Of a DNA stretch of 12,780 bases, positions 1 to 12,780 are shown in pieces (positions within the stretch are counted from its first letter, which is position 1; every line of letters starts with the position of its first letter). The translations under genes and the position numbers were made by a program. A model generated the notes under the pieces. The model was given only the letters and a program-made list of their open reading frames with translations, was not told where the DNA came from and did no database searches. The stretch comes from Planctomycetota bacterium (GTDB lineage Bacteria > Planctomycetota > PUPC01 > JACPCR01), in the NCBI GenBank assembly GCA_030740295.1, contig JASLXP010000124.1, positions 1 to 12,780 on the forward strand. Reading direction: 5' to 3'.

Positions 1-528
1 GGGAGAATGGTGGAGGACATCGAAGAAAAGTGGGGAGGCATCGATATCCTTGTTAACAACGCCGCCGTGACCCAGGCTCTGCCCATTGCTCTGATGGAGG
101 AAGAGGACTGGGATTACGTCATGGACACAAACGTGAAAGGAGTTTTTCTCACGACGCGGACGGTTCTCCGCGGGATGATTCGGAGCAAAGGTGGTGTCAT
201 TCTCAACATCGGTTCCCTCGCCGGTGTGCGAATGATGGAAGCTCCCCTCCATTACTACACCAGCAAGGCGGCCATCAAAGGTCTTACCGAGTGCCTGGCC
301 AAGGAGGTAGCCCGATATGGCATCCGAGTCATCTGCCTGGCCCCCGGGCTGCTCGAGGAGGGAGTGGGACGCAACTTGCCCGACCACCGACTGGCTGACT
401 ATCTAAAACACTGCTCCCTTGGCCGAGTCGGCAGGTTCGGAGAGGTGGCGCGTTTTGCCGCCTTTCTAGTCTCCGATGCAAACACCTATATGACCGGCGA
501 AACGGTCATCATCGACGGCGGGGTTTAG
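1..528 (+). CDS. SDR-family 3-oxoacyl-ACP reductase (FabG-like), 5' end outside window
   Basis: Short-chain dehydrogenase/reductase, most likely an NADPH-dependent 3-ketoacyl-ACP reductase of the type II FAS/PKS operon that follows. The frame is open from base 1, so the true start and the N-terminal TGxxxGxG cofactor loop lie upstream; the ATG at 7 is internal. Counting from that Met, the visible part has the VNNAA motif (16-20), Asn42, Ser70 of IGS, and Tyr83/Lys87 of YYTSK, which form the complete SDR catalytic tetrad. The APG motif after the active site and the terminal TGETVIIDGG strand are typical of FabG. The C-terminal third closely matches the next gene (both have KHC, RVGR and NTYxTG in register), so the two are tandem paralogues. 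The stop is 6 bases before the next ATG, consistent with one operon. The SDR assignment is firm; the substrate is inferred from neighbours. Confidence 0.9.
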   Translation, partial: GRMVEDIEEKWGGIDILVNNAAVTQALPIALMEEEDWDYVMDTNVKGVFLTTRTVLRGMIRSKGGVILNIGSLAGVRMMEAPLHYYTSKAAIKGLTECLAKEVARYGIRVICLAPGLLEEGVGRNLPDHRLADYLKHCSLGRVGRFGEVARFAAFLVSDANTYMTGETVIIDGGV

Positions 529-534
529 GCGCTA

Positions 535-1299
535 ATGCCAATGAAAAGCAACCCCTCACAAAGCCTTGGCTGTCTCGTCTTCGGCGGCTCCGGCGCTCTT
601 GGCCGGGTGGTCTGCCATGCCCTCGCAGCTAAAGGAGCTCGAGTCGCCTTCACTTACCACACCGGCGGAGAAGTGGCGAAGGAGTTAGTTAAAGAACTGC
701 CCGGAAGCCAGGCCCTGCAGCTTGATCTCAGATCGGTGACTGAGATCGAAAGTGCCGTTGATGCAGCGGCAGATGAATTCGGTGGCCTGGACGCCTTTGT
801 TCAGTGCGCTGCCGTCGGGGTGACAATGGAATGTTCAGGCCCCACCTCCCATCACCTCATGTCTCAAGTGGACGAAAAGGGCTGGGACATGATGATGGAC
901 GTCAATGCCAAAAGCACTTTTTTTGCAGTCCGGCACATTTCAGAAATCATGCGAAGGAATAATGGGGGCAACATCGTTCTGGTTGGCTCCATTGATGGGG
1001 TGAAGCCGGTGCCAGCCCCGGTCCACTACGCGGCCTCAAAGGCGGCGCTGCAGGGCATGACGCAGGCCATGTCGAAGGAGCTCGGCGAATTCGGGATTCG
1101 TATCAACCTGGTAGCGCCGGGCATCCTCGAGGACGGAATATCGCGGGACCTTCCCGATGATCTTCTCAGCGAGTACATCAAACATTGCGGCCTGAAGAGA
1201 GTCGGCCGTCTCTCCGAAGTCGCCAGTATCATTACCTGGCTCGCCCGCGAGAACACCTATGTGACCGGGCAGACCATTCTTGTAGATGGGGCAGTTTGA
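535..1299 (+). CDS. SDR-family 3-oxoacyl-ACP reductase (FabG-like), second tandem copy
   Basis: Complete SDR of 254 aa, normal length for FabG-type reductases, probably reducing 3-ketoacyl-ACP intermediates made by the downstream ketoacyl synthase. The cofactor loop is GGSGALG (17-23) rather than the usual TGxxxGIG, and the NNAG motif is replaced by QCAA (90-93). The tetrad Asn124, Ser152, Tyr165, Lys169 is intact. There is an insertion of about 10 residues after the QCAA strand (around 100-112) compared with the preceding paralogue. The APGILEDG and TGQTILVDG segments mirror the first SDR. A second ATG at 541 is an alternative start; neither has a strong Shine-Dalgarno. The stop lies 2 bases before the dehydratase start, suggesting translational coupling. 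The altered cofactor and NNAG motifs suggest specialisation for another chain length or substituent, but this is inference. Confidence 0.9.
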   Translation: MPMKSNPSQSLGCLVFGGSGALGRVVCHALAAKGARVAFTYHTGGEVAKELVKELPGSQALQLDLRSVTEIESAVDAAADEFGGLDAFVQCAAVGVTMECSGPTSHHLMSQVDEKGWDMMMDVNAKSTFFAVRHISEIMRRNNGGNIVLVGSIDGVKPVPAPVHYAASKAALQGMTQAMSKELGEFGIRINLVAPGILEDGISRDLPDDLLSEYIKHCGLKRVGRLSEVASIITWLARENTYVTGQTILVDGAV

Positions 1300-1301
1300 C
1301 C

Positions 1302-1778
1302 ATGCGTTATTTTCTGATTGATAAAGTTACCGAGCTGGTCGTTGGTGAAAGGGCCCGGGGGATAAAGAACATCACTCTCAGCGACGAGATCCTGCACGAC
1401 CACTTCCCGGATTATCCGATCATGCCTGGCGCTCTTATCCTGGAATCGGCCGCACAGCTTTCAGGATTCCTTCTGGAGATGACGTTCAATCAACCAGAAG
1501 CCCCACCCCTAAGGGCCCTGCTCGTACAGATCCAGAATGCCAAGTTTTACGAAACCTGTGGGCCGGGAGACCAGTTGGACATCACGGTGAAATTGGACTC
1601 AAAGCTGGATGCCGCAGCGCAGGTAAGCGCCGAAGTTCTGAGAGGTGAAACACGGGTCGTTCGAGCCTTGCTGACTTTTGTCATGAAAGACATCCCCTCC
1701 GAAAAAATACACGAACAAAGGAAAAGCGTTTACAGGCTATGGACCAGAGATTTCGAGACCCCTGTTACGATTCTTTAG
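1302..1778 (+). CDS. 3-hydroxyacyl-ACP dehydratase, FabZ-like hotdog protein
   Basis: Hotdog-fold dehydratase that would remove water from 3-hydroxyacyl-ACP to give trans-2-enoyl-ACP, the step after the SDR reductases. Of 158 aa, close to FabZ length. The diagnostic active-site stretch is present: His34 in HFPDYPIMPG and Glu48 in LILESAAQ, 14 residues apart as for the His/Glu pair in FabZ. The start at 1302 is chosen because it follows the previous stop by 2 bases and begins directly with the first hotdog strand; the reading frame is open further upstream but that overlaps the SDR. The last ~20 residues (YRLWTRDFETPVTIL) extend past the fold, and the gene overlaps the next one by 40 bases. 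Family certain; FabZ versus an aryl-polyene-type dehydratase cannot be decided here. Confidence 0.9.
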   Translation: MRYFLIDKVTELVVGERARGIKNITLSDEILHDHFPDYPIMPGALILESAAQLSGFLLEMTFNQPEAPPLRALLVQIQNAKFYETCGPGDQLDITVKLDSKLDAAAQVSAEVLRGETRVVRALLTFVMKDIPSEKIHEQRKSVYRLWTRDFETPVTIL

Positions 1779-2617
1779 CCATCACCGGGATCGGACATGT
1801 GCTGTCGACGCCCTGTGATCCCCGGCCCTGGCTGAAGGTGAAAAAGAATCGCAAGTTCATGGGCGCCCAGGACGACCTCGCGCTGGTTTCCGCTGGGCGC
1901 GCGCTTGAATCAGCGGGTCTTTTGGGCGTGTCCCTCGGTGAGAGGGCTGGTCTCTACCTGGCCGTCGGCTACATCCCCTTCGAAGAAGAAGACATCGATA
2001 GTCTGCTCGAAGTGTCCGCCGACTCAGAGGGATTCTGCATGGAGCGATTCTCCACAGAAGGCTACGACGCAGTGAATCCGCTGCTCACCTTCAAGTGCCT
2101 GTCGAACATGCCGGCCTTCCACATTTCTGCGAACTTCGATATTCAGGGACCCTACTTTGTGACCTATCCCGGGACCGGTCAGTTCTATCTCGCGCTCGAG
2201 GAAGCCTGCTCTGCTCTGAAGATGGGCTTGATTGACGTGGCTCTTGTCAGTGGCGTGGCTCACCAGCGAAACTTCCTCGTCAACCACCACTTCAACAGGA
2301 TCTCTTTCCCTGTGCCATCGGAACGCCTTCTGGATGGCGCCGGGTGTCTGGTCATCGAGTCGAAGAATCACGCGGCCGAACGCAAGGCCCAGATTCGCGG
2401 AAGGATGCTGAACTGTGATGTGAGCTACAGTACCTTTCACCCGTTCGAGGATCGTCTTCATCACACTGAACGATTCGAGGGATTGACCGGAGCGGATGGC
2501 GAGTTAGGCCCCGCATCATTGCCCGTCGCGCTGAGCCTCGGCAGTCATGGATACATTCACCATGAAGCGGAAACTCGCGATGGCATCGCGGCGTCGAGCG
2601 AATGGGAGCTGCTATGA
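1739..2617 (+). CDS. Beta-ketoacyl synthase-like protein without catalytic Cys (chain-length-factor-like)
   Basis: 292-aa protein resembling the N-terminal half of a ketoacyl synthase. The opening strand LAITGIGHVLS and the segment ALKMGLIDVALVSGV are typical thiolase-fold KS landmarks. Where KS enzymes carry the nucleophilic Cys (consensus STACATG) this protein reads VTYPGTG, with Pro144 at the Cys position, so it cannot act as a condensing enzyme by the usual mechanism. There are no HGT or KxxxGH motifs. It ends about 120 residues short of a full KS, but with a strand (DGIAASSEWEL) that looks like a natural terminus, so it may be a complete short family member such as the Ketoacyl-synt_2 / ApeC type of aryl-polyene clusters rather than a broken gene. 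It overlaps the dehydratase by 40 bases and the next KS by 4 (ATGA), suggesting a translationally coupled partner, perhaps a heterodimeric chain-length factor. KS-like fold confident; role inferred. Confidence 0.78.
   Translation: MDQRFRDPCYDSLAITGIGHVLSTPCDPRPWLKVKKNRKFMGAQDDLALVSAGRALESAGLLGVSLGERAGLYLAVGYIPFEEEDIDSLLEVSADSEGFCMERFSTEGYDAVNPLLTFKCLSNMPAFHISANFDIQGPYFVTYPGTGQFYLALEEACSALKMGLIDVALVSGVAHQRNFLVNHHFNRISFPVPSERLLDGAGCLVIESKNHAAERKAQIRGRMLNCDVSYSTFHPFEDRLHHTERFEGLTGADGELGPASLPVALSLGSHGYIHHEAETRDGIAASSEWELL
2604..2608 (+). promoter_or_regulatory. Ribosome binding site deciding the start of the ketoacyl synthase
   Basis: GGGAG lies 5 bases before the ATG at 2614, whose last bases overlap the previous stop (ATGA). 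This favours 2614 over the ATG at 2602, which has no such site and would add only four residues (MGAA). Confidence 0.6.
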
Positions 2618-3834
2618 GACGCCGCGTGGTTGTCACAGGCATGGGAGTCGTTTCCCCGATCGGCGACTCGGTCGCAAGCTTCAGTGACAGTCTTCTCGAT
2701 GGCCGGTCTGGCATTGGCCCCATCACGCTGTTCGACCCGGTCTCGCTCCCAACCAGGGTCGCAGCGGAGGTGCAGTGGGGTCGAGAGATGCTTCGGGATC
2801 GCAAGATTACTTTTGCGCAGGTTGCGGCAGAGCAGGCTCTCGACGACGCTGCAGCACGCAAAACGAAGCCAAGGGGCGATGGCGGACTCAGCCTCGGCAT
2901 TGGCCTCGAGCTCTTTTCCATGGAGGACATGGTCAAATCCCGGGGAAACGCGCCCCGTCCCGCGGCCTCGCAGCAAGAGCGGCTTACGTTTATTCAAACG
3001 CCATCGGACCTCTGCGTACACCTGATCTCGAAAGAGCATGGTCTTTGCACACCTCCGATCACACACGTCTCAGCATGCGCCGCGGGTACCGACGCGATTG
3101 GCTCGGCTTTCCGAATGGTGGCAGACGGACGCCGGGATTGGATGCTCGCAGGCGGAACCGACTCGATGATTAATCCGTTGGGCCTTGGGGGATTCTGCAA
3201 ATTGAATGCACTAAGCACGAGAAACGACCACCCCGAGAGCGCTTCCAGACCCTTTGACAGGAATCGGGACGGCTTTGTCCTCGGTGAGGGGGCAGCCATG
3301 CTGGTCCTCGAGGACCTCGAAGACGCAAAGGCCCGCGGCGCGAACATTCATGCTGAGATCATTGGTTACGGCAATTCCTTTGACGCCCATGGGATCAGCG
3401 AGCCGCACCCGGAAGGACGGGGCGCATGCCAAGCCATGAAACGCGCTCTCGATGAAGCAGGCATCCTTCCGGCATCGGTAGACGCGATCAACGCGCATGG
3501 AACCTCAACTCCGAAAAACGATCCCGTTGAAACATCCGCCATCAAAGGGGCCTTCGGGGATCGCGCATACAGAATCCCGATCAGTTCGACTAAATCAATG
3601 ATAGGCCACCTGATTTCCGCGGCAGGCGCGGTCGAAGCAGTCGCCGCCATCGCGTGCATGCAGAAGGGTTTCGTGCACCCCACCATCAATCTTGATGAAC
3701 CCGACCCCGCCTGCGATCTCGATTACGTTCCGCATGAGGCCAGGCGGATGGACACATCCATCGTGTTATCCAACTCCTTCGGATTCGGCGGGCAGAATTC
3801 CTCCATCCTCTTCAGGAAATACGTGAATGCTTGA
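2614..3834 (+). CDS. 3-oxoacyl-ACP synthase, FabF-like (KASII type)
   Basis: Decarboxylative Claisen condensing enzyme that extends acyl-ACP with malonyl-ACP. The 406-aa protein is full length for FabF. Active-site Cys155 (VSACAAGT), His295 (NAHGTST), Lys327 (SSTKSMIGH) and His332 are all present, with spacing 140/32/5, the same as between Cys163, His303, Lys335 and His340 of E. coli FabF. The C-terminal SNSFGFGGQN glycine-rich motif is intact, as is the N-terminal VVVTGMGVVSPIG strand. It starts in a 4-base overlap (ATGA) with the Cys-less KS-like gene and ends overlapping the following SDR fragment by 8 bases, so the operon is densely coupled. With the Cys-less partner it resembles a KS/CLF pair as in type II PKS, aryl polyene or related systems; the product is unknown. 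Confidence 0.95.
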   Translation: MRRRVVVTGMGVVSPIGDSVASFSDSLLDGRSGIGPITLFDPVSLPTRVAAEVQWGREMLRDRKITFAQVAAEQALDDAAARKTKPRGDGGLSLGIGLELFSMEDMVKSRGNAPRPAASQQERLTFIQTPSDLCVHLISKEHGLCTPPITHVSACAAGTDAIGSAFRMVADGRRDWMLAGGTDSMINPLGLGGFCKLNALSTRNDHPESASRPFDRNRDGFVLGEGAAMLVLEDLEDAKARGANIHAEIIGYGNSFDAHGISEPHPEGRGACQAMKRALDEAGILPASVDAINAHGTSTPKNDPVETSAIKGAFGDRAYRIPISSTKSMIGHLISAAGAVEAVAAIACMQKGFVHPTINLDEPDPACDLDYVPHEARRMDTSIVLSNSFGFGGQNSSILFRKYVNA

Positions 3835-4051
3835 AGACAAAAAGATCCTCATCACGGGGGCAAGCCGTGGTATCGGAAGAGCCATTGCACTGGCATGTGC
3901 CCGGGAAAGGGCTGCCGTGGGTATCAGCTATCGGGACTCAGAAGACCAGGCGAAGTCTCTTCACAAAGAGATCGCCGACCGATATGAAACCCGGGTTAAA
4001 ACCCGGGGCTACCCGCCTAAGTCCCTTCGGGACACAATTCACTGGCGCTAA
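3827..4051 (+). pseudogene. Truncated FabG-like SDR (N-terminal Rossmann part only)
   Basis: Starts inside the end of the ketoacyl synthase gene and encodes a perfect FabG N-terminus: KKILITGASRGIGRAIA, with the TGxxxGIG cofactor motif, then ISYRDSEDQAK in the NADP-selecting region. After about residue 55 (IADRYETRV) the similarity stops where the frame enters a palindromic REP-like element at 3989, and the remaining ~20 codons (KTRGYPPKSLRD...) are just translated repeat. The NNAG motif, the YxxxK active site and the C-terminal half, about 190 residues, are missing, and no continuation is found in any frame before the next gene at 4311. It would be the third SDR of the operon. The product could not be an active reductase. 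The loss probably happened by deletion or rearrangement at the repeat; an assembly join is the other possibility. Confidence 0.8.
3989..4033. repeat. REP-like double palindrome at the broken end of the FAS-like operon
   Basis: Two adjacent hairpins. CCCGGGTT (3990-3997) pairs with AACCCGGG (4000-4007) across a 2-base loop. GTCCC (4021-4025) pairs with GGGAC (4029-4033) across TTC. The connector GCTACCCGCCTAA lies between them. This layout is like short interspersed palindromic elements that occur in many copies between genes. It sits exactly where the SDR coding similarity ends, and it also supplies the stop codon of a short minus-strand frame. Copy number elsewhere cannot be seen here. Confidence 0.6.
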
Positions 4052-4175
4052 ACAGTCCCGCGCTTCTCTTTTGATACTTCTCATAAACGAAGACGGAAAG
4101 ACAGAAATAAATGACGCCAATCCCTGTCAGCGTAATCGCAAACAGGTCGACCGCCCTGTAATCTCTGTTGCTCAT
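4017..4175 (-). CDS. Possible small single-pass membrane protein or N-terminal gene remnant
   Basis: Fifty-two codons reading MSNRDYRAVDLFAITLTGIG and then a hydrophobic run (VIYFCLSVFVY) followed by a basic EKYQKR, the pattern of a small inner-membrane protein with one helix at about residues 9-32. The last ~10 residues and the stop codon come from the REP-like repeat, so this may be the surviving N-terminus of a longer membrane protein, cut at the same repeat that truncates the facing SDR gene. A GGAG lies about 13 bases before the ATG, rather far. The frame stays open upstream to 4262, but that part looks non-coding. No family recognised; it could be chance. Confidence 0.3.
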   Translation of the reverse strand: MSNRDYRAVDLFAITLTGIGVIYFCLSVFVYEKYQKRSAGLFSASELCPEGT

Positions 4176-4310
4176 GCTCACTTGAACTCTCCATGGACAT
4201 GACTGCTGTGCCACAAGCCGCTCACTACTTAACTTGAAGCGACCTACGGCCGCAACCTCCATTCAGAATCGGTGGCTTTTTACTTCTCGGTCTTCTCTGA
4301 ACCATCCGTC

Positions 4311-7300
4311 ATGAACGACTACAACTCCGACAGTCGGAGAGAACTGATAGTCCGTAAGGACCTGATCTCTTGCATCGCGCTTCTGCCAGTGGCGTGCACC
4401 ATTCTTTGGGCTCAGGATCTGAAAGTCTCGAAGATTCGCCGCCTGCAAGGGCCGCCGCCCTCTGAGGTTCCTGCCGGCTTTGCAGCCACTGCCAGCACAC
4501 CGATAAGCATCGACGGAAAGCTCGATGAAGCGGCCTGGAAGAGGGGCAACTGGATCGACCAGTTCCAAAATTATGTCACCGGCGCGCCTGCCATAGACGG
4601 GACTCGGTTCTGCGTCCTCTTTGATGTGGAACAGAACCGCATCTTCCTCGGCGCGGAAATGATGGACAGCTCGATGTCTACTTTCGGAGAGCGGGGAGAA
4701 GACCGCGCGAAGCAACCGCGTGACAACTGGCCGGGCGAATGTGCTGAATTTTTCCTGTCTCCCAAATGCGACGGCAATCAGTATTTTCAACTCGCGGTGG
4801 GCCCGCGTGGCACGAAGCCTCTCCCGAACGGCAACCTGATTGTCTACGACGCCAACGACACAGAATCCAAAGCATGGGACGGCAAATGGAAAGCTACGGG
4901 ACAGAAGCTCGCAGATCGCTGGATCCTTGAAATGGAGATCGATGCCGATTCATTGGACGGTGCGACCCTGAAGAACGGGGCAGTGTGGGCGATGAATTTC
5001 TGCCGTGGGAATTATTTCTCTCGTGACAGAAAGCTCCCCACGGAATACCAATCATGGGCCCCGGTCCAGAACGGATTTCGTGATGTGCCCCGGTTTGGCC
5101 GGCTCATCTTCGGTGAGAAGGCGACTGCAGAACACGCATCGCGGCTGCACCTGCCCTACGAGGTGAAGCTCTACCCGGACCGGGAAAACTATGACGGCCA
5201 ATTTGAAAATGCGGAAGTCGCTCTCTTTGTGCCGGTAGCGCCACCGAAAGGATCGGAGCTTCAGTTGGAGTTGGCTTCCATCGATGGCGAGCGCGGCTTC
5301 ACGATGCTGCCCGTTGAAAGTGCAGGATACATCGCCGCGCAGGTGGACATCTCCGGTTTGCCCGAAGGCACATACCAATGGAGCGCGAAGTTGCTGGACC
5401 CCGCGGGCAAGACGCTGGCGACAGCAGAGCGTCCCATGATTCGCACTGAGAAGACTGGAATCAGCGAAGTGAAACTGCCGGTTCGCGTACCTTTGAGATT
5501 CTTCAGGCTGGGCGGAGCCGACGGCGGGTACAACGGCGCCTTTCCCATTTCGACGGGGCTGCCCCTTTCGCGTGGCCTCGTACGAGATCCTCAGCAGATC
5601 ACGGTGTTTCATGGCAGAAAAAGAATCTCCAGCCAGAAAACCGTCCGGCAATCCTGGGACAGAGGCAGGAGCATCCGATGGCTTGGGCTGGACTTCATCG
5701 CGGAATACGAGAATGGAATCGCTTCCGACTACGTTGCTGTGATCAACAGCAAGCCATCGAGCTCAAGAAACAGAAAGCCATTGCCCGTAACTTCCAGTAA
5801 TGGCGCCGTTGAAATCACGACCGGCCCCGCTCGCTTCAGATGGACGGCCGCGGGCAAAGGCCTTCCGGATGCGGCCTGGCTCGACGCGGACGGAAACGGA
5901 AAGTTTTCAAAGGACGAACAGGTGATCCAGTCCGGCCCAGACGACGGCGCCTATTGGATCGCTACAAGCGTTGACGGTGGACGCTGCGACCTGACGGGCG
6001 ACCTGAAATTCACCATCGAAGAATCTGGCCCGCTGAAGGCCGTGCTGCGTGTAGACGGATGGTACGAAGGCCGGCGGAAGAAGGAACGAAACTGCCGGGC
6101 CACGCTGCGCTTCACTGCTTATGCAGGCCAGGCTTTCCTTCACATGGACCACACTTTTGTCATCACCTTCGATGACAAAAAGGAAAAGATTCGCGGCATC
6201 GGCTTGCAGTTGGGAGTGCCGGGCACGAAGACCGGCAGTTTCGCTCATCTCGACGGCTCGCCCGTCACACGCAAGGCCACGAAGAAAGGCTCTTACCTGA
6301 ACCAGCGCTGGTGGAACGAATTCAAAGTCATGGAAGCCAGTGCAGACCCAAACCGGCCTGACAGCTTGCAGAACGGGACGAAGTCGCTGGGCATGGTCTC
6401 GGTCGTGTCGCCGCGGGCCCGCGTCATCATGGCCCTGCGGGATGCCTGGCAGCTCTATCCCAAAGAATTCAGCTTTGATGAAGGTGGCATCAGCGTTCAC
6501 CCCTGGCCGACCCATCCCGCGGCCTTTTCCGGGTCGTGGGATTACCAGGCACGCCGTGAACTTGATCCCGACAACATCTGGAAGCTCTGGTACGCACACC
6601 GGCAATCCTACTACGGCACGAGCCTGGCTTTCCCGCAATCCTACTTTGATCGTATCAAGCAGGAGGTGGAGAAAAATCCGGGCCAGGGGAACGCAGACAG
6701 CTACGCCGCCCTCGGGCTGCAGTCGAACGCGCACGGCATCGCCATTCACAACGAAATGCTGCTCGGGCTCGGCGCGCCGGATTCGCCGGTCGAAGATGCG
6801 GTCCGGCTCGCGGGCGTGTTTCAGGAAAATCCGCACGGCATCCCTGACCCGCAGTGGATCGGGGCCAGCCGCGCTATCTGGCCGTTCTCGCCAAAGGACA
6901 CGAAACAATTCCCGCGCCTCGAATCGCTGATGGATACCGCGTGGACCTGGTTCTACGACTCAGTCTGCGAGCGCAACGGGGACTACGGCCTGTTCAACTT
7001 TCTCGATGGGCATACGTACAACGGCACGGCTACCGCGACCAAACAGGTCTGGCATCGCGTCTGGCTGAACAATCATTACGACCACGCGTACATGCTCTGG
7101 CTGATGTATGCCCGCAGCGGCGAGAAACGCTATTTCCGGATGGCCCGACGGCACGCCCGGCACGTGGCCAACATCGATACCTGTCACGAATACAGCAAGC
7201 CCGGACAGTTGCTTCATCAGCACGTGCCGGGCGGTGTGTTCCACTGCAAAGGATTTCATCACTGGGGCGGCTCGGCCGCGCTATGGGATCACATGGTCTG

Positions 7301-7883
7301 TCCCGATTACCAGTTGCTGAATTACTACCTTACCGGGGACCGCCGATACTGGGACACCTTCAATGAATGGCGGACGAGTCTCACAAAGCTCCACACCCGA
7401 CCCACTTGGGGCCGCAACGGCGTCTACATGTTGAAAGCCTTCAACGATGCTTACGAAGCCACCGGCGATCCGATCCTGCTCGCGCACCGCTGGGATCAGG
7501 CCGACCACACGGTAAAAGTGCCGTTCCGCGAACAGCACGCGATGGCCTTCCAACCGACCGTCTATCCGGAGTATCTGCGCTCGGTGGGCGACTCAGCCAT
7601 GCTCAAAAGATTCCTGGAATATGTGGACGATCTGATGGCAGGCAAAGCCCAGGGCACCTGGCCGCCCTTCGCATTCTTCACCAGCGCCTGGCAACTGACG
7701 GGTAATCGAAAATACATCGAGCACAATGCGAAGTTCATCGCCGAGAAACTCCACAGTTGGCGGGAGCGATATACCAGCATGCACCTGAATGCCACGCCGG
7801 GCCTGGTATCCAGTCTGGAGGCGCTCAGAGAGGCGGGGTTCACCGAGGAAGCCATCTTCAAACTGCGGAAGATCGAGAAGTAG
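4311..7883 (+). CDS. Exported CBM9-like / PcRGLX (PL26-like) exo-rhamnogalacturonan lyase family protein
   Basis: Very large secreted polysaccharide-degrading protein of 1190 aa. The ATG at 4311 is chosen: it gives a basic start (RRELIVRK), a hydrophobic core (LISCIALLPVACTILW) and a plausible signal-peptidase site at WA-QD around residue 36; a GTG at 4272 in the same frame would spoil this layout. Residues ~55-270 look like a carbohydrate-binding family 9 / DOMON-like domain (ISIDGKLDEAAW, then a VxFD strand and an AEFFLSP strand). From ~residue 395 (VRVPLRFFRLGG, then FPISTGLPLSRG) it matches my recollection of the RIFT-barrel domain of PcRGLX/YetA-like proteins, followed by a beta-sandwich and an aromatic-rich helical toroid (WLNNHYDHAYMLWLMYA; FHHWGG). 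Such proteins cleave rhamnogalacturonan I by beta-elimination. Catalytic residues were not assigned. It has no visible operon partner; the integron cassettes start about 250 bases downstream. CBM9 call strong, PL26 assignment moderately strong. Confidence 0.8.
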   Translation: MNDYNSDSRRELIVRKDLISCIALLPVACTILWAQDLKVSKIRRLQGPPPSEVPAGFAATASTPISIDGKLDEAAWKRGNWIDQFQNYVTGAPAIDGTRFCVLFDVEQNRIFLGAEMMDSSMSTFGERGEDRAKQPRDNWPGECAEFFLSPKCDGNQYFQLAVGPRGTKPLPNGNLIVYDANDTESKAWDGKWKATGQKLADRWILEMEIDADSLDGATLKNGAVWAMNFCRGNYFSRDRKLPTEYQSWAPVQNGFRDVPRFGRLIFGEKATAEHASRLHLPYEVKLYPDRENYDGQFENAEVALFVPVAPPKGSELQLELASIDGERGFTMLPVESAGYIAAQVDISGLPEGTYQWSAKLLDPAGKTLATAERPMIRTEKTGISEVKLPVRVPLRFFRLGGADGGYNGAFPISTGLPLSRGLVRDPQQITVFHGRKRISSQKTVRQSWDRGRSIRWLGLDFIAEYENGIASDYVAVINSKPSSSRNRKPLPVTSSNGAVEITTGPARFRWTAAGKGLPDAAWLDADGNGKFSKDEQVIQSGPDDGAYWIATSVDGGRCDLTGDLKFTIEESGPLKAVLRVDGWYEGRRKKERNCRATLRFTAYAGQAFLHMDHTFVITFDDKKEKIRGIGLQLGVPGTKTGSFAHLDGSPVTRKATKKGSYLNQRWWNEFKVMEASADPNRPDSLQNGTKSLGMVSVVSPRARVIMALRDAWQLYPKEFSFDEGGISVHPWPTHPAAFSGSWDYQARRELDPDNIWKLWYAHRQSYYGTSLAFPQSYFDRIKQEVEKNPGQGNADSYAALGLQSNAHGIAIHNEMLLGLGAPDSPVEDAVRLAGVFQENPHGIPDPQWIGASRAIWPFSPKDTKQFPRLESLMDTAWTWFYDSVCERNGDYGLFNFLDGHTYNGTATATKQVWHRVWLNNHYDHAYMLWLMYARSGEKRYFRMARRHARHVANIDTCHEYSKPGQLLHQHVPGGVFHCKGFHHWGGSAALWDHMVCPDYQLLNYYLTGDRRYWDTFNEWRTSLTKLHTRPTWGRNGVYMLKAFNDAYEATGDPILLAHRWDQADHTVKVPFREQHAMAFQPTVYPEYLRSVGDSAMLKRFLEYVDDLMAGKAQGTWPPFAFFTSAWQLTGNRKYIEHNAKFIAEKLHSWRERYTSMHLNATPGLVSSLEALREAGFTEEAIFKLRKIEK

Positions 7884-8159
7884 GTTTTGAAGCAACCCGC
7901 TATTTCGAAGGAATCTCCTGCGACGGCACAAATGTTGGCGACCCCGGGTACACTGCCTCTGGCCGCACCGGCGTAGGAACCTGATGTCGCTCCAGAGATG
8001 CATGTTGTGAAGCGGCACCAGGAGAGTCCATCGCATGCTGTCAGGTAAGTGTGATATTTCAACAGGGCGATATTGCCCGAAGCTTGTTCAATATGGATAT
8101 CTCAGGTCAAATCTGCCTGTACCACTAATGTTATGTGCGCCAGCACGGGAGCCGTTTTG
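7884..8159. other. Gene-free spacer between the lyase gene and the first cassette gene
   Basis: 276 bases without a convincing gene. It contains a near-palindrome GGGCGATATTGCCC (about 8066-8079) and, at 8130-8135, GTTATG, which matches the right-hand core of the attC1 site downstream and could be the left boundary of the first cassette. I found no upstream arm able to pair with it, so it may be an attI-like remnant, a broken attC, or chance. No integrase gene fits here. The frame of the lyase continues past its TAG for 30 codons and again after a second TAG, with no recognisable similarity. Confidence 0.4.
8147..8151 (+). promoter_or_regulatory. Ribosome binding site of the first cassette gene
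   Basis: GGGAG eight bases before the ATG at 8160. It supports 8160 as the start instead of in-frame ATGs at 8073 or 8133, which lack such a site. Confidence 0.5.
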
Positions 8160-8594
8160 ATGAGTCGAAAGGTACTCGAAGTGCGACCCAACGGGCCGGG
8201 AGAGGTCGTCAAGTGGAGCTCGTTCCGGCAAGGGCTCTTTGAGTCTATGAGCAACGTTTCCAGGTTCACTCGCCTCACGACCTGTCTGACAGATGCTGTC
8301 TCGACCATGTGGAAGATCTGCGTAGAGATGGACCCGTCCTGTGAGAGAGTGGTGCATAAAGCGAATGGCCTTTTCAGCACGTACTTCCGATTAGCTTTTA
8401 TCGGAACCGATTTTTGCGTTGAAGCTGAACGCTCTCTTGCTTACGGGCTCAACCCTGAACTTTCCTCAAACTATCGCGTTCTTCTGACCGTAACTTCCGA
8501 AAGTGCTGAACTTGTCGAGGCGATCATCGAGCGATACGTTCAGCTCGTCCCTGACCCCTTGAGAATTGCAGGAGGCCAGACCGTCCCCAAATAG
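8160..8594 (+). CDS. Cassette 1 protein, family not recognised
   Basis: 144-aa soluble-looking protein, not assigned to any family. The start at 8160 (MSRKVLEVRPNGPGEVV) is chosen for its Shine-Dalgarno; upstream extension to 8073 would cross the putative cassette boundary at 8130. The sequence has a central helical stretch (LTTCLTDAVSTMWKIC) and a final alpha/beta part (NYRVLLTVTSESAELVEAII). There is no signal peptide or membrane segment, and no catalytic motif stands out. The stop codon is only 2 bases before the attC1 left core, the close packing typical of integron cassettes, and this is the strongest reason to treat the ORF as real. Expression would depend on a promoter upstream of or within the array. 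Confidence 0.65.
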   Translation: MSRKVLEVRPNGPGEVVKWSSFRQGLFESMSNVSRFTRLTTCLTDAVSTMWKICVEMDPSCERVVHKANGLFSTYFRLAFIGTDFCVEAERSLAYGLNPELSSNYRVLLTVTSESAELVEAIIERYVQLVPDPLRIAGGQTVPK

Positions 8595-8596
8595 GC

Positions 8597-8721
8597 ACAT
8601 AACAAAGCGCTCGACAGAACTTGCACGAATACCGTGACTGGACGTTCAACTCCGCTTTGATTTTTTCTTTAACTTGCTGGTGGGCGGAGCTCGTGCAAGT
8701 CTGTCAGCTTAGACGTTATGC
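8597..8721 (+). other. attC1, integron cassette recombination site
   Basis: Outer cores CATAAC (8598-8603) and GTTATG (8715-8720) are exact inverse complements. Inside, GCT (8609-8611), GACAG (8613-8617) and ACTTGCACG (8619-8627) pair with CGTGCAAGT (8692-8700), CTGTC (8701-8705) and AGC (8706-8708), leaving only C8612 and A8618 unpaired. On the folded bottom strand these are the extrahelical G and T that orient attC recombination. Unpaired spacers of 5 and 6 bases separate the cores from the L boxes. The centre (about 64 bases) holds a T-rich run. Strand exchange is expected between G8715 and T8716. Confidence 0.92.
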
Positions 8722-9344
8722 CTGACGATCTGAAGAGCTTTCGCTGTATCGGGCTGGGCATGGAGCGTAGGACACCAGTGCTTTTTCTTGCCGTCATCTG
8801 TTTGACGCTCCTTGCGATCAGCGTGCCTCTGCATCTGCGCACTAGAGCAGTTGCGCACCGGGCAACCTGTCGTGCCCGGATCATGCAGTGTGCCCTCGCG
8901 ATCCGTGGCTACGTTGCGCAGTGGGGTGGTTGGTCTCACCCTGATCCCAGCTATTACGTGAAGGAACTGGGGTACAAGCTCACCTCGGAGACAGGATACT
9001 TCGGAGAGCCACCACCATGGTACTCGGCAGACGCGCTCAATCCGACGAGGTCGCAGGAACATGCAGCAGGTATCGAGGCGCTGCGGTGTCCTCTCGACTC
9101 GGCCCCCGCAATCATCATGAACGGGATACCTTCCTCCTACACTTTCATTCAGAGTTGGCCACGCGCTGGAGTCATGAATCCGGCCCCCCCGAGCGAAGTG
9201 CCGCTGCTGATCGAGTTCGGGCGAAGGCATTCCGCCGCGGACAATCCAGAAGTCCGAGGCGGCCACTGCATGTTCCTGGACATGCATGTCGAGATTCGTG
9301 CAGACCAGGCTCGGCTTGAAAAGCGTGCTATTGGCAGCAATTAG
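8718..9344 (+). CDS. Cassette 2: degenerate type II pseudopilin / H-X9-DG pre-pilin-like protein
   Basis: 208-aa protein resembling the pre-pilin-like proteins with a C-terminal H-X9-DG motif that are abundant in Planctomycetota, Verrucomicrobiota and Lentisphaerota. A hydrophobic helix (residues ~20-38, VLFLAVICLTLLAISVP) is followed by the family's Cys-containing helix (RATCRARIMQCALAIRGYV) and QWGGWSHPDP, matching the usual CxxNLKQIGLAL-MYxxDxxGxxP pattern. Near the C-terminus RHSAADN...MFLDMHVEI corresponds to RHxG...ADGHVE, with DMH in place of DGH. The peptidase motif GFTLxE before the helix is absent, so pilin-type processing is doubtful and the helix may act as a membrane anchor. The ATG at 8718 lies inside the attC1 core; ATG 8760 (MERRTPVLF) is an alternative giving a more natural N-terminus. 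Family call is by pattern; function as a cassette protein is unknown. Confidence 0.72.
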   Translation: MPDDLKSFRCIGLGMERRTPVLFLAVICLTLLAISVPLHLRTRAVAHRATCRARIMQCALAIRGYVAQWGGWSHPDPSYYVKELGYKLTSETGYFGEPPPWYSADALNPTRSQEHAAGIEALRCPLDSAPAIIMNGIPSSYTFIQSWPRAGVMNPAPPSEVPLLIEFGRRHSAADNPEVRGGHCMFLDMHVEIRADQARLEKRAIGSN

Positions 9345-9485
9345 ACGGGCACGTCCCCTGCGGCGCTGTCGAAACTGAAGCCTTAGCTTCGAATTGCCCA
9401 ATCGCTACCGGCAGAAGGGCAGACCGCGACCGTGAATAATGACTTTGATACCAGACTCCAGAAGTGGGCGCGAGAACAGACAAGC
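9345..9485. other. Non-coding remainder of cassette 2
   Basis: About 140 bases between the pre-pilin stop and attC2, long for a cassette. It holds a small hairpin (GAAGC, loop CTTA, GCTTC) near 9376-9390 with no T-tract, and a 19-codon frame starting with GTG at 9432 (VNNDFDTRLQKWAREQTSA) whose TAA stop at 9489-9491 lies in the attC2 left core. Cassette genes often end there, so this could be the tail of a decayed second gene; too short to judge. Confidence 0.3.
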
Positions 9486-9612
9486 GCATAACCAGAGCGC
9501 TCCAGAGAACTGCTTTCTGGCGTCTCAAATTGGAGTCAATCGTTGCTTTGATGTTTACTTTCCTTTTAATCCGCTCGTGGCTGTCCGCAGTCTCTGAGCT
9601 TAGACGTTAGAT
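9486..9612 (+). other. attC2, integron cassette recombination site
   Basis: Left core GCATAAC (9486-9492) and right core GTTAGAT (9606-9612, fits GTTRRRY). GCT (9499-9501), CAGAG (9503-9507), ACTGC (9509-9513) pair with GCAGT (9587-9591), CTCTG (9592-9596), AGC (9597-9599); the only unpaired bases are C9502 and A9508, the same two positions as in attC1. The flanks also match attC1 (AGCGCTC on the left, AGCTTAGACGTTA on the right). The centre is T-rich (CTTTGATGTTTACTTT). Exchange is expected between G9606 and T9607. Confidence 0.92.
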
Positions 9613-9638
9613 GGCTAGAGAACCCTCACTTAAAGGCG

Positions 9639-10130
9639 ATGGCTCAAGAAGAAGACGATCCCTACTGGAAGCTGAAGCCCCCAGCGCCAACACCAGCGCA
9701 TGAAATCTGCTCATGTCTCGATCACCATCCGATCGTCCTGCAGTGCCATCTCTCGTACAACCCGATAAGCTGCCTCGAATGCAACCTTGAAGTTCCACCG
9801 GAACGTATCGGTTTCTCCGCACAACTCGCCGAGGACTTAGCATTCTGGCGCACATTCCATGATTCCTTCCATCACTTATGGCTGGAATCCGTTGAATTTG
9901 AATCTTGGGCCTTTGAACAGTTATCGAATCCAACGAGTTCCGTAAACACTCGCGGTCTCGCGCTTAGCGACGCGCTCAACTCGCACCGACGATGCTACTA
10001 CTGGTGGTTCCAAGATTCTGGAGCAGATGATTTTCAACCGACCACGAAATGCCCACAGTGCCCCTTGCCGCTCACATCCCGAAGCATTAGATTGGTATGT
10101 GAAGTTTGTTCAATTGTCGTTGCAAACTGA
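9639..10130 (+). CDS. Cassette 3: zinc-ribbon protein of unknown function
   Basis: 163-aa soluble protein with metal-binding cysteines at both ends. Cys24/Cys26 and Cys45-x2-Cys48 (SCLEC) lie near the N-terminus. CPQC (138-141) and CEVC (154-157) near the C-terminus form a classical four-Cys zinc ribbon. The middle is rich in aromatics (LAFWRTFHDSFHHLWLES; RRCYYWWFQDSG). It resembles proteins annotated as zinc-ribbon, possibly nucleic-acid-binding (DUF2310-type), but I recognise this only by general pattern. The start at 9639 is preceded by AAAGG very close to the ATG (2-base gap), so translation initiation is uncertain; a 30-codon frame from the ATG at 9611, next to the attC2 core, overlaps out of frame. 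The stop is 11 bases before the attC3 left core. No signal peptide or membrane helix. Confidence 0.7.
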   Translation: MAQEEDDPYWKLKPPAPTPAHEICSCLDHHPIVLQCHLSYNPISCLECNLEVPPERIGFSAQLAEDLAFWRTFHDSFHHLWLESVEFESWAFEQLSNPTSSVNTRGLALSDALNSHRRCYYWWFQDSGADDFQPTTKCPQCPLPLTSRSIRLVCEVCSIVVAN

Positions 10131-10141
10131 CCACCATGGCC

Positions 10142-10269
10142 ATCTAACAAAGTCACTCGACCGAAGCCCTCAGTACTCGCGCTCTTTAGCGTTTCTGATT
10201 TTTTTAAATCATCCGTGTTCTGCGACGATGTCGGTCATCGTCCGGACTCGGTCAGTTCCGACGTTAGCT
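10142..10269 (+). other. attC3, integron cassette recombination site
   Basis: Left core ATCTAAC (10142-10148, fits RYYYAAC) and right core GTTAGCT (10263-10269). ACT (10155-10157), GACCG (10159-10163) and AGCCC (10165-10169, one mismatch) pair with GGACT (10244-10248), CGGTC (10249-10253) and AGT (10254-10256); C10158 and A10164 are unpaired, at the same places as in attC1 and attC2. The 3' spacer is again 6 bases. The centre has a T run (TGATTTTTTT) and a hairpin CGATG/CATCG (10224-10238). Confidence 0.9.
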
Positions 10270-10282
10270 GCTCCTTTGAATC

Positions 10283-10402
10283 GTGATTAACTCCAAAACA
10301 GAAGCTTTCAACTTGCTCGAATCACTTGGAGCTCCGACCAGACTTCTGCAACACGCCAGAATCGTTGGAGATGCCGCTGAAGTGCGCCTCGAACACCTTG
10401 TG
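10283..10402 (+). pseudogene. Cassette 4: N-terminal fragment of an HD-domain hydrolase-like gene
   Basis: Begins with GTG 14 bases after the attC3 right core, the usual position for a cassette gene. The first ~40 residues (INSKTEAFNLLESLGAPTRL, then LQHARIVGDAAEVRLEHL) closely resemble the opening of small HD/HDIG-domain phosphohydrolase-like proteins (pattern LLxxLGAPxRLxxHxxLVxEAAExLL). The frame continues to 10588 but from about residue 41 it runs out of frame over the beta-helix gene and its leader, and the catalytic HD motif is never reached. No attC follows. The cassette was therefore cut by a deletion or rearrangement joining it to the leader of the gene at 10450. Family call is from memory of the motif and moderately sure. 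Confidence 0.55.
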
Positions 10403-10435
10403 TCGATGAGGTGTCGCCCTGCGCTGTACTCACAC

Positions 10436-10440
10436 AGGAG
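10436..10440 (+). promoter_or_regulatory. Strong ribosome binding site of the beta-helix gene
   Basis: AGGAG nine bases before the ATG at 10450. It fixes this start against the in-frame upstream ATG at 10411 and implies that the native leader of this gene survives up to at least 10436. Confidence 0.65.
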
Positions 10441-10449
10441 ACCTTCCGG

Positions 10450-12567
10450 ATGTCAGCCGAAAACGAGATCTGTCTGTTTGTATCACCCGAAGGTAACGAC
10501 GGGTGGTCAGGCACCATCGCAGAACCTGATGAGGGCGACGGGCCATTTGCGACCATCGAGCGGGCGCGCAACGCGGTTCGAGCACTGAAGCGGAAAGGCC
10601 GGCTGACGGCACCTGTCCGCATCGTGCTGCGAGGGGGGACGTACTTTCTGGACCGGCCCCTTGTGCTGGGTCCGAAGGATTCAGGAGACGTGGAGTGCCC
10701 GGTCACTTACGCTGCCCATCCGGGCGAGATGCCAATCCTGAGCGGCGGGCGGCAGATAGAGGACTTCCGCGAAGAGAAGCTGAAGGGCAGACGCGTCTGG
10801 GTGACGGAGATTCCCGAAGTCAAGCGTGGGGAATGGTACTTTCACCAGCTCTTCGTTAACGGCGAGCGCCGTCCACGTACGCGCCTGCCGAAGCGCGGCA
10901 TGTACCGGATCAAAGGCCTGCCGGATTTCCCGCCAGGTACGTACGAGAAAGTGGTAAAACGTCATGGCATCGGGGCCGCATGGAAGCAGCAGTGCAGACA
11001 GGATTGCTTCGAGTACCTCAAAGGCCACATCAGGCGATGGCGGAATCTGCAAGACGTGGAGATCATTGCGCCCCACCAGTGGTGCGAGAGCCATTTCCAC
11101 ATCGCCGGCGTGGACACGAGAAAACGGGCAGTGACTCTTGACCGGCTAAGCAAGTGGAGTCTGCACGATGACAGCAGCCGGCGGGGCACGCGATATGCCG
11201 TGTACTGGATCGAGAACGTATTCGAGGCGCTCGATACCGCGGGGCAGTGGTACTTGGATCGCACGAAGGGACGGCTGTATTACCTTCCGAAGCGTGGGGA
11301 AAAACCCGGTTGTGCCGCCGTTGTTGCACCGCAGTTGGAGCAACTGCTGCGTATCGTTGGCACGAAAAATCGAAAGGTCGCGCACGTCCACTTCAAAGGT
11401 ATCACGTTCTCGCACACCGAGTGGAATTTCCCCAGCGACATGGCCGGCTCTGTTGATGCTGCGGCTGTGCCCGGCGCGGTGTTTCTGACGCACGCGGAGC
11501 ATTGCAGCATCTCACACAGCGTCATCGAGCACGTCGGCACCTGGGGGATCCAGGTGGCCGGGGGATGCATGGATAACGAGGCATGTCACAACCGGATCCA
11601 CGACTTGGGCGCCGGGGGGGTGAAGGTGGATTCCGAAACCGTAGCCGAAGGCATTCCGAAAGCTGGGTGCGATACCTTACGCACGAACATCACGGACAAC
11701 TCCATCGCGCAGGGCGGACGTATCTTCAAGACTGGCCATGGCATCCTTATCAGCAACAGTCCAGCCAACAGAATCCTGCACAATCACATCTGCGATCTGT
11801 TCAGCGAAGGAATCTGTCTGACGGGGCTCTGTGGCTATGGCAAGAACTATGGGATGGGGAACGTCGTCGAGTACAACCACATTCATCATTTGCGGGGCGA
11901 CGTCCTGAGCGATCAGTCGGCTATCTGGACGGGCGGGGTAGTTACTGGCACCCGCATCCGCTACAACCTGATCCATGACGTGGCCTGCCGAGTCTACGGT
12001 GCACAGGGCATATTCCTCGACTCGGCCAGCAGCTTCGTCCTGGTCGAGAAGAATATTGTCTATCGTTGCCAGGGCTACCCTCTGCACCATCTCCGCGGCC
12101 GGGAGAACGAAGTTGTGAACAATATCTTCGCGTTCGGCCGAGAGTGTCAGATTCAGCGCACCGTTATGGAGCCACACTGCTCGTTTACTGCCCGCCGCAA
12201 CATTGTCTATTATGCCGAAGGCGATCTGCTTGGCGGAAAATGGCTCGCGTCTCCCGATGAACTGACCACGTATCCCGACGCCTGGAGCCGCAAGCTCGAC
12301 GCCGACAAGGCGACGGTCACCCACTGCAAGTTTGACAACAATGTTTACTTCGAAACATCAGGCCGACCAGTGACCTTCGCTGGCAAGACGCTTGAAGAAT
12401 GGCAGGCGCAGGGCAATGACAAGGGCTCCCTGATCGCGGACCCGCTGTTCGTTGATCCGGACAACGGCGACTTCGCTCTGCATCCCGACTCCCCCGCGTT
12501 CAAGCTCGGTTTCGAGCCAATCGATCTCAGCGAGGCCGGCCCCCGCGACCACGCCAACAACGGCTAA
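10450..12567 (+). CDS. Right-handed parallel beta-helix protein, GH141-like glycoside hydrolase candidate
   Basis: 705-aa protein of the beta-helix class. The N-terminus is a family hallmark: LFVSPEGNDGWSG, then GPFATIERARNAVRAL, VRIVLRGGTYFLDRPLVL, and YAAHPGEMPILSGG, followed by an inserted domain with HQLFVNGERRPRTRLP (about residues 130-270). From ~300 on there are regular helix rungs with Asn/His-rich turns (HFKGITFSHTEW; IEHVGTWGIQVAGG; GILISNSPANRILHN; YNHIHHLRGD) and a terminal DPLFVDPDNGDFALHPDSPA segment. This layout is that of GH141-type proteins (alpha-L-fucosidase and xylanase activities known), and pectin side-chain cleavage would suit the neighbouring rhamnogalacturonan-lyase-like gene. 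Catalytic acids were not assigned. There is no signal peptide from this start, so it is predicted cytoplasmic, unless an original N-terminus was lost at the cassette junction just upstream. Beta-helix certain; GH141 moderately sure. Confidence 0.8.
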   Translation: MSAENEICLFVSPEGNDGWSGTIAEPDEGDGPFATIERARNAVRALKRKGRLTAPVRIVLRGGTYFLDRPLVLGPKDSGDVECPVTYAAHPGEMPILSGGRQIEDFREEKLKGRRVWVTEIPEVKRGEWYFHQLFVNGERRPRTRLPKRGMYRIKGLPDFPPGTYEKVVKRHGIGAAWKQQCRQDCFEYLKGHIRRWRNLQDVEIIAPHQWCESHFHIAGVDTRKRAVTLDRLSKWSLHDDSSRRGTRYAVYWIENVFEALDTAGQWYLDRTKGRLYYLPKRGEKPGCAAVVAPQLEQLLRIVGTKNRKVAHVHFKGITFSHTEWNFPSDMAGSVDAAAVPGAVFLTHAEHCSISHSVIEHVGTWGIQVAGGCMDNEACHNRIHDLGAGGVKVDSETVAEGIPKAGCDTLRTNITDNSIAQGGRIFKTGHGILISNSPANRILHNHICDLFSEGICLTGLCGYGKNYGMGNVVEYNHIHHLRGDVLSDQSAIWTGGVVTGTRIRYNLIHDVACRVYGAQGIFLDSASSFVLVEKNIVYRCQGYPLHHLRGRENEVVNNIFAFGRECQIQRTVMEPHCSFTARRNIVYYAEGDLLGGKWLASPDELTTYPDAWSRKLDADKATVTHCKFDNNVYFETSGRPVTFAGKTLEEWQAQGNDKGSLIADPLFVDPDNGDFALHPDSPAFKLGFEPIDLSEAGPRDHANNG

Positions 12568-12621: not shown

Positions 12622-12738
12622 GACCCCTGTGGGCTCGCCAGCTCGCCTCACGGGTGAATCAGGTTGAAAGGTTAGCTCAAGAGCCAGGGAGGAAACCATT
12701 CAACCTGATTCACCTGCCAGGCAAGCTGGCAAGGGGTC
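12622..12738. repeat. Nested inverted repeat (REP/MITE-like) downstream of the beta-helix gene
   Basis: The arm GTGAATCAGGTTGAAAGGTT (12654-12673) is matched by its inverse complement at 12694-12713 with one mismatch, across a 20-base loop. Farther out, GACCCC with CCAGCTCGCC (12622-12647) mirrors GGCAAGCTGG and GGGGTC (12720-12738), making a hairpin-like element of about 117 bases. It begins about 55 bases after the stop codon, so it may also act as a transcription terminator, although no T-tract follows closely. Confidence 0.65.
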
Positions 12739-12761
12739 TTTCCGTTTCATTCTCCCCTTCT

Positions 12762-12780
12762 AACCATCCAACCTGATTCA
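12762..12780. repeat. Further copy of the repeat unit, running off the window end
   Basis: These 19 bases repeat 12694-12712 in direct orientation with a single mismatch, 68 bases further on. The unit therefore occurs at least three times here (one inverted, two direct), and the series probably continues beyond the window. Confidence 0.6.

Follow-up and report, generated by a model that had tools for sequence, protein, structure and literature searches.

A probable piece of a planctomycete integron cassette array with three attC sites and no integrase in 12.8 kb

Do three similar sites, lying between two polysaccharide-degradation genes of a bacterium, mark an array of integron cassettes, or are they ordinary repeats of the kind found between genes? 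The question arises from a 12,780-nucleotide stretch of DNA, all of which was analysed and is referred to here as the window. An initial annotation, made from the letters of the sequence, had placed three attC sites in it and had read them as a mobile cassette array. The reading favoured here, on sequence grounds and with high confidence, is that positions 8130 to ~10410 represent a piece of a planctomycete integron array, consisting of three complete cassettes and a fourth that would have been cut by a later rearrangement.

Anatomy and folding of the three sites

The sites were sought with a descriptor composed after the annotation's claim had been read. It comprises AAC/GTT cores, spacers, and an L stem with one unpaired base after 3–4 bp and another after 5–6 more. 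The scan of the window returned three places only, all on the + strand and all with ends identical to those annotated: site 1 at 8597–8721 (125 bases; descriptor score 19.1), site 2 at 9486–9612 (127 bases; 14.6), and site 3 at 10142–10269 (128 bases; 14.6). Sixty dinucleotide shuffles of the window gave no score of 12 or above. With the threshold lowered to 10.5, the window still yielded the same three sites only, and 11 chance matches, the best of which scored 12.0, came from 824,160 bases of shuffled sequence (13 sources, each shuffled five times). A scan of the window against Rfam at gathering thresholds gave no match; Rfam is not known to contain an attC family.

Each of the three sites has R″…AAC and GTT…R′ cores, L″ and L′ boxes, spacers, and extrahelical bases, and the details that had been read from the letters were recovered. 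On the top strand, the L stem of every site consists of 3 bp, an unpaired C, 5 bp, and an unpaired A, so that the bottom strand carries a G and a T as its extrahelical bases. All three sites have a 3′ spacer of 6 bases and a T-rich centre, and all 11 of the pairs tested per site (3 + 5 in the L stem plus three AAC/GTT core pairs) are of the Watson-Crick type. The second L stem can be read as 5 or 6 bp (two A residues are adjacent), and the descriptor scan picked 6. Over a stretch of 21 bases at their 3′ ends, the three are 76 to 90% similar to one another. The outer cores, annotated as paired, are largely so in place, with 6, 4, and 6 of the 7 positions pairing within sites 1, 2, and 3, respectively; pairing over the full seven is achieved only with the first bases of the cassette to which the site belongs.

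The sites had also been credited with an identical folding logic. This is true of their anatomy, whereas the predicted stability of the folds separates site 2 from the others. As bottom-strand DNA, sites 1 and 3 are each more stable than 200 of 200 shuffles (z −5.20 and −4.20, respectively), but site 2 is no more stable than its shuffles (z +0.64), 152 of 200 being as good. The share of the predicted ensemble that contains the attC stem was 0.20, 0.02, and 0.58 for the bottom strands of sites 1, 2, and 3, versus 0.74, 0.002, and 0.63 for the top strands. Since the top-strand shares are comparable to those of the bottom strand, folding alone does not favour the latter, and the bottom-strand check suggested in the annotation gives a divided answer. 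The bottom strand would be the recombining one by virtue of its extrahelical G and T, taken together with what is known of integrons.

A covariance model was derived from other members of the Planctomycetota. The integron-integrase model TIGR02249 was used to search 294 genomes of the phylum, from which 20 integrase-bearing stretches (L063–L082) were then taken. The descriptor found 46 matches scoring at least 11 in these stretches, as compared to four in one shuffle per stretch, and many of the stretches carry several matches on one strand next to the integrase. The integrase itself shares a strand with the attC matches in L067, L068, L072, L073, and L075 and is on the opposite one in L063–L065, L074, and L078–L081. 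The model was constructed from 34 of the 46 matches, picked by eye, included no base from the window, and was run without filters. Its top three places in the window were sites 1 to 3, end to end, at 27.8 bits (E 2e-5), 27.2 bits (E 2.7e-5), and 25.0 bits (E 9.6e-5), with the fourth best at 6.9 bits; these E-values are roughly calibrated, and the test shares the bias of the descriptor with which the training sites were selected. An attC covariance-model search had been proposed with the annotation, and in the one made here with planctomycete sites all three stand out. Isolated matches were seen elsewhere, including one of 24.6 bits that falls within a long L010 ORF and one of 28.1 bits in genome G226 that was set aside as isolated and, by eye, in coding DNA. 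Because such isolated matches reach similar scores by chance, only a tandem set with closure constitutes strong evidence.

Cassette closure, boundaries, and genes

When an excised cassette closes into a circle, its own first bases come to pair with the 5′ core of its attC. Complementarity of this kind is found in all three units of the window, over 7 of 7 bases. The core of site 1, ACATAAC, is the reverse complement of GTTATGT at 8130–8136 (9 of 9 bases when extended), that of site 2, GCATAAC, is complementary to GTTATGC at 8715, which forms the end of site 1, and that of site 3, ATCTAAC, is complementary to GTTAGAT at 9606, which forms the end of site 2. In the last case, the match can be carried to 10 of 10 bases (GCCATCTAAC at 10139–10148 against GTTAGATGGC at 9606). 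Since the partner of each core is the beginning of the cassette that it ends, pairing in place within one site is imperfect.

Each closure 7-mer is single among the 140 GTT words of the window's + strand, and random AAC/GTT pairs from the window show a 7-base match in 147 of 25,480 cases (0.58%). A blind scan of the window for 9-base closures gave six matches versus 1.50 in shuffles; two of the six are cassette ends and four are not. In a control that covers 16 of the 20 planctomycete integrase stretches, 15 of 42 sites scoring at least 12.5 closed exactly on the detected site before them. The 27 misses include sites without a detected predecessor and likely false matches, for example, a perfect palindrome in L073.

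Closure of the site 1 core at 8130 puts the start of the array there, a boundary that had been left unmarked in the annotation, with a predicted exchange point (G^TT) at 8130/8131. On the + strand, cassette 1 would occupy 8131–8715, with G^TT points at both ends, cassette 2 would occupy 8716–9606, and cassette 3 would occupy 9607–10263, each of these complete units comprising one ORF followed by its attC. If they behave as integron cassettes do, a single strand of the attC (the bottom one in known integrons) would fold into a hairpin, with the orientation dictated by its unpaired G and T. IntI would then cut at G^TT and exchange strands, and the cassette could exit as a circle and re-enter elsewhere. 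Established knowledge of integrons suggests that the sites in the window are, or were, recombined by some IntI. The 246 bases between the preceding gene and 8130 contain no listed match to the attC model. They were also considered as a possible attI, as they recall the bases preceding the first cassettes in some integrase loci; the resemblance, judged by eye, was too weak, and the candidate was dropped.

At the right end, GTTAGCT after site 3 opens a fourth unit, of which the start only is present (10264 to 10410 on the + strand, the right edge being approximate). Roughly 45 codons from 10283 are 44% identical over 45 aa to a protein encoded on L007, a contig from an Anaerolineae MAG (E 3.3e-7 against a small set of loci). 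That protein matches the HD domain at 23.4 bits (cut-off 22), while the piece in the window has no Pfam match of its own. The HD-like frame then turns into an unrelated one before the next ORF begins, so the array is probably cut here, within a fourth cassette that would start an HD-domain-like gene.

The ORF of cassette 1 (8133–8594, + strand) specifies 153 aa, and its start codon overlaps the core; at E ≤ 1e-3, the protein matches only itself. The cassette 2 ORF (8718–9344, + strand; 208 aa) likewise has no relative besides itself and no credible family match, although one 28-aa match was seen in L074 (E 0.009 in a small search set). Its product may be pseudopilin-like, judging by a motif. 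Neither protein has a relative among the viral contigs searched. The third ORF (9639–10130, + strand; 163 aa) encodes a DUF2310 Zn-ribbon protein, with a PF10071 match of 28.8 bits (cut-off 25) and 79 relatives at E ≤ 1e-3; among these is a protein of 99% identity that is recorded on 12 contigs. In the plasmid collection, there was no match to this protein or to the DNA of 8100–10300. Viral contigs held one distant DUF2310 relative, where the best attC-model match was 12.8 bits (E 1.3). A paper search on DUF2310 returned no paper from the library searched.

Relatives of the DUF2310 protein occur at 11 loci in genome contigs, from MAGs labelled as several phyla. At two of these, L009 and L010, attC-model matches lie beside the gene, and at the other nine there is no match at E ≤ 5. 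In L009, from a Planctomicrobium MAG, attC-model matches flank the DUF2310 gene, upstream at 40.0 bits and immediately downstream at 32.8 bits. In L010, from an Acidobacteria MAG, a match of 21.2 bits (E 0.01) is located just downstream with others upstream, and an integrase split over two frames lies ~5 kb upstream of the gene. The split integrase, at 4149–5095, consists of two overlapping pieces in different frames that adjoin the attC array; a second, whole integrase is present on another contig of the same MAG (L013). The array reading of the annotation thus draws support from three directions, namely, the covariance matches, cassette closure, and the DUF2310 relatives beside attC matches.

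The remaining DUF2310 loci are more varied. L007 has no attC-model match, yet a 9-base closure joins its positions 4005 and 4831 (one of three such matches, the shuffle mean being 0.40), and a 7-base closure with G^TT-type ends, found by eye, encloses the HD-domain gene next to DUF2310. Misses of the model are therefore weak evidence. The segment at 4005–6860 of this 10-kb contig is likely a small cassette array with HD-domain, unknown, and DUF2310 genes. By eye, the contig also encodes DNA-polymerase-like and ParM-like proteins and is perhaps a plasmid or phage. Two further loci, L001 and L002, have at most half-site-like sequence, again by eye. In the latter, from a Kiloniellaceae MAG, a sequence resembling the 5′ half of an attC follows the DUF2310 gene at 10490–10540, perhaps representing a lone captured cassette. 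Among the 294 Planctomycetota genomes, seven possess a DUF2310-like gene, and within the ~3-kb loci examined, attC matches were found only in G009, the genome of L009. Judged by such surroundings, DUF2310 relatives are not always cassettes.

Flanking genes, host, and integrase

The left neighbour of the array (4311–7883, + strand) encodes a PcRGLX-like protein (PF21345, 50.2 bits; PF21346, 33.6 bits), and the right neighbour (10411–12567, + strand; likely ATG at 10451, by eye) is a beta-helix/GH141-like ORF with matches to PF13229 and PF21231. The setting among pectin-degradation genes that had been annotated is borne out to the extent of these family matches, both of which lie outside the cassettes. 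The PcRGLX-like protein had no relative in a scan of genome contigs; matches to it at 23–40% identity occur in 77 of 246 Planctomycetota genomes.

Host placement relies on the genes at 1–3834 (+ strand), which encode SDR, SDR, FabZ-like, KAS-like, and KAS proteins. The same five-gene order is found at L107 in genome G077, with identities of 73, 45, 65, 49, and 63%. Two genomes of a single Planctomycetota order, G077 and G161, have proteins that share 65 and 63% identity with the KAS protein. The next matches are 52% identical over the full length and 54% over part, and the best in 68 Hydrogenedentota genomes, among the matches listed, is 47%. Synteny of this fatty-acid-type cluster supports a host within Planctomycetota, which narrows the PVC-type bacterium of the annotation. 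A third SDR gene of the cluster (3827–4051) ends after ~55 codons at a GC-rich palindromic repeat (AACCCGGGTTAAAACCCGGGGCTACC...GTCCCTTCGGGAC), with repeats seen by eye at 3985–4035, and the cut gene suggests a rearrangement to the right of ~3990. To the right of the GH141-like gene, inverted and direct repeats are found at 12634–12780, with 45-base arms that are complementary at 82% of positions and another copy at the window's end.

An intI gene, which the annotation had recommended seeking on the same genome, is not found in the 12.8-kb window by tblastn with 20 IntI queries (best E 0.18), and within the window no intI or attI of the kind that adjoins the array in a complete integron was identified. 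As far as the window shows, the array is a CALIN, with three attC sites and no integrase in 12.8 kb. It may be a remnant, or else the far part of a complete integron with its integrase elsewhere. At the phylum level, the claim of an unusual setting is not supported: an integrase that exceeds the curated cut-off is present in 49 of the 294 Planctomycetota genomes (the same model gives a match in 52 of them). In the order nearest the window, 0 of 10 genomes have one at E ≤ 1e-40, although this silent answer is no proof of absence, and the ten are a small and distant sample (nearest KAS, 65% identical). The attC search in that order scored 150 of the 1,508 to 17,268 first-look candidates per genome and does not show the order to be without such sites. 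In the sequences searched, neither an empty site nor a relative with rearranged cassettes was found.

The lack of an integrase in the window and in those ten genomes would also fit insertion of the cassettes at an attG-like, non-integron place near 8130, by a trans-acting integrase in a lineage that has none of its own. The stretch between 7884 and 8130, devoid of listed attC-model matches, agrees with such an event. The right end, however, appears to be a cut fourth cassette rather than a clean junction of G^TT with host DNA, which fits the remnant of a longer array, and ten distant genomes say little about the lineage. A clean attG insertion was accordingly set back, and this account is judged unlikely. 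A related proposal is doubtful at best: the order as a whole would be without an integron integrase of its own, and cassettes would have been gathered between polysaccharide-degradation genes by an integrase supplied in trans or present transiently. If true, cassette capture would reach lineages that never carried an integron.

It is also improbable that the array came from another organism and is joined to the flanking genes by assembly chimeras. In favour of this, repeats lie on either side (3985–4035 and 12634–12780), the GC content of the cassettes (0.51–0.57) differs from that of the flanking genes (0.57–0.59), and similar attC sites are described in PMC9024848 as complicating assembly. 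On the other hand, the cassette 1 protein is listed on 19 contigs and the cassette 2 protein on 10, the longest of 64,533 bases for each, an observation that is silent on the junctions themselves. Finally, it is very improbable that the sites are ordinary intergenic repeats or terminator-like hairpins with no relation to integrons, given that, despite their similar 3′ ends and the poor folding of site 2, all three have asymmetric unpaired C and A bases, covariance matches spanning them end to end, and 5′ cores matched by the beginning of their own unit and not by the other sites, the closure in three of three being strongly contrary.

Relation to known integrons

The preferred reading, a planctomycete integron array piece, places the locus in familiar company. 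Planctomycete integrons had been reported by 2008 (PMC2426708), there is a covariance model of Planctomycetes attC sites (PMC8352920), and the CALIN, now reported with at least two attC sites, is a standard class (PMC9024848). Like the CALINs of IntegronFinder, the array in the window has at least two attC sites and no integrase seen; the window is a fragment, and a complete integron is possible. The Planctomycetota integrons of L063–L082 share with it the attC anatomy, G^TT cores, cassette closure, and phylum, but they were chosen for having an integrase, whereas none was found in the 12.8 kb of the window. Their aligned sites are mostly 59–73 bases long (24 of 34), with 10 of 34 at 91–131 bases, as compared to 125–128 in the window. 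VCR-type attC sites of Vibrio cholerae are long and similar to each other within an array. The sites described here would resemble them in length and mutual similarity.

Integrons have long been known in Planctomycetota, and the array is an ordinary further example that leaves knowledge of integrons unchanged. For the integrons of this phylum, it adds a DUF2310 cassette, with relatives that adjoin attC sites in Planctomicrobium and Acidobacteria MAGs, and two cassette genes that are orphans. It also illustrates that attC sites can be located with base precision from the letters of the sequence alone.
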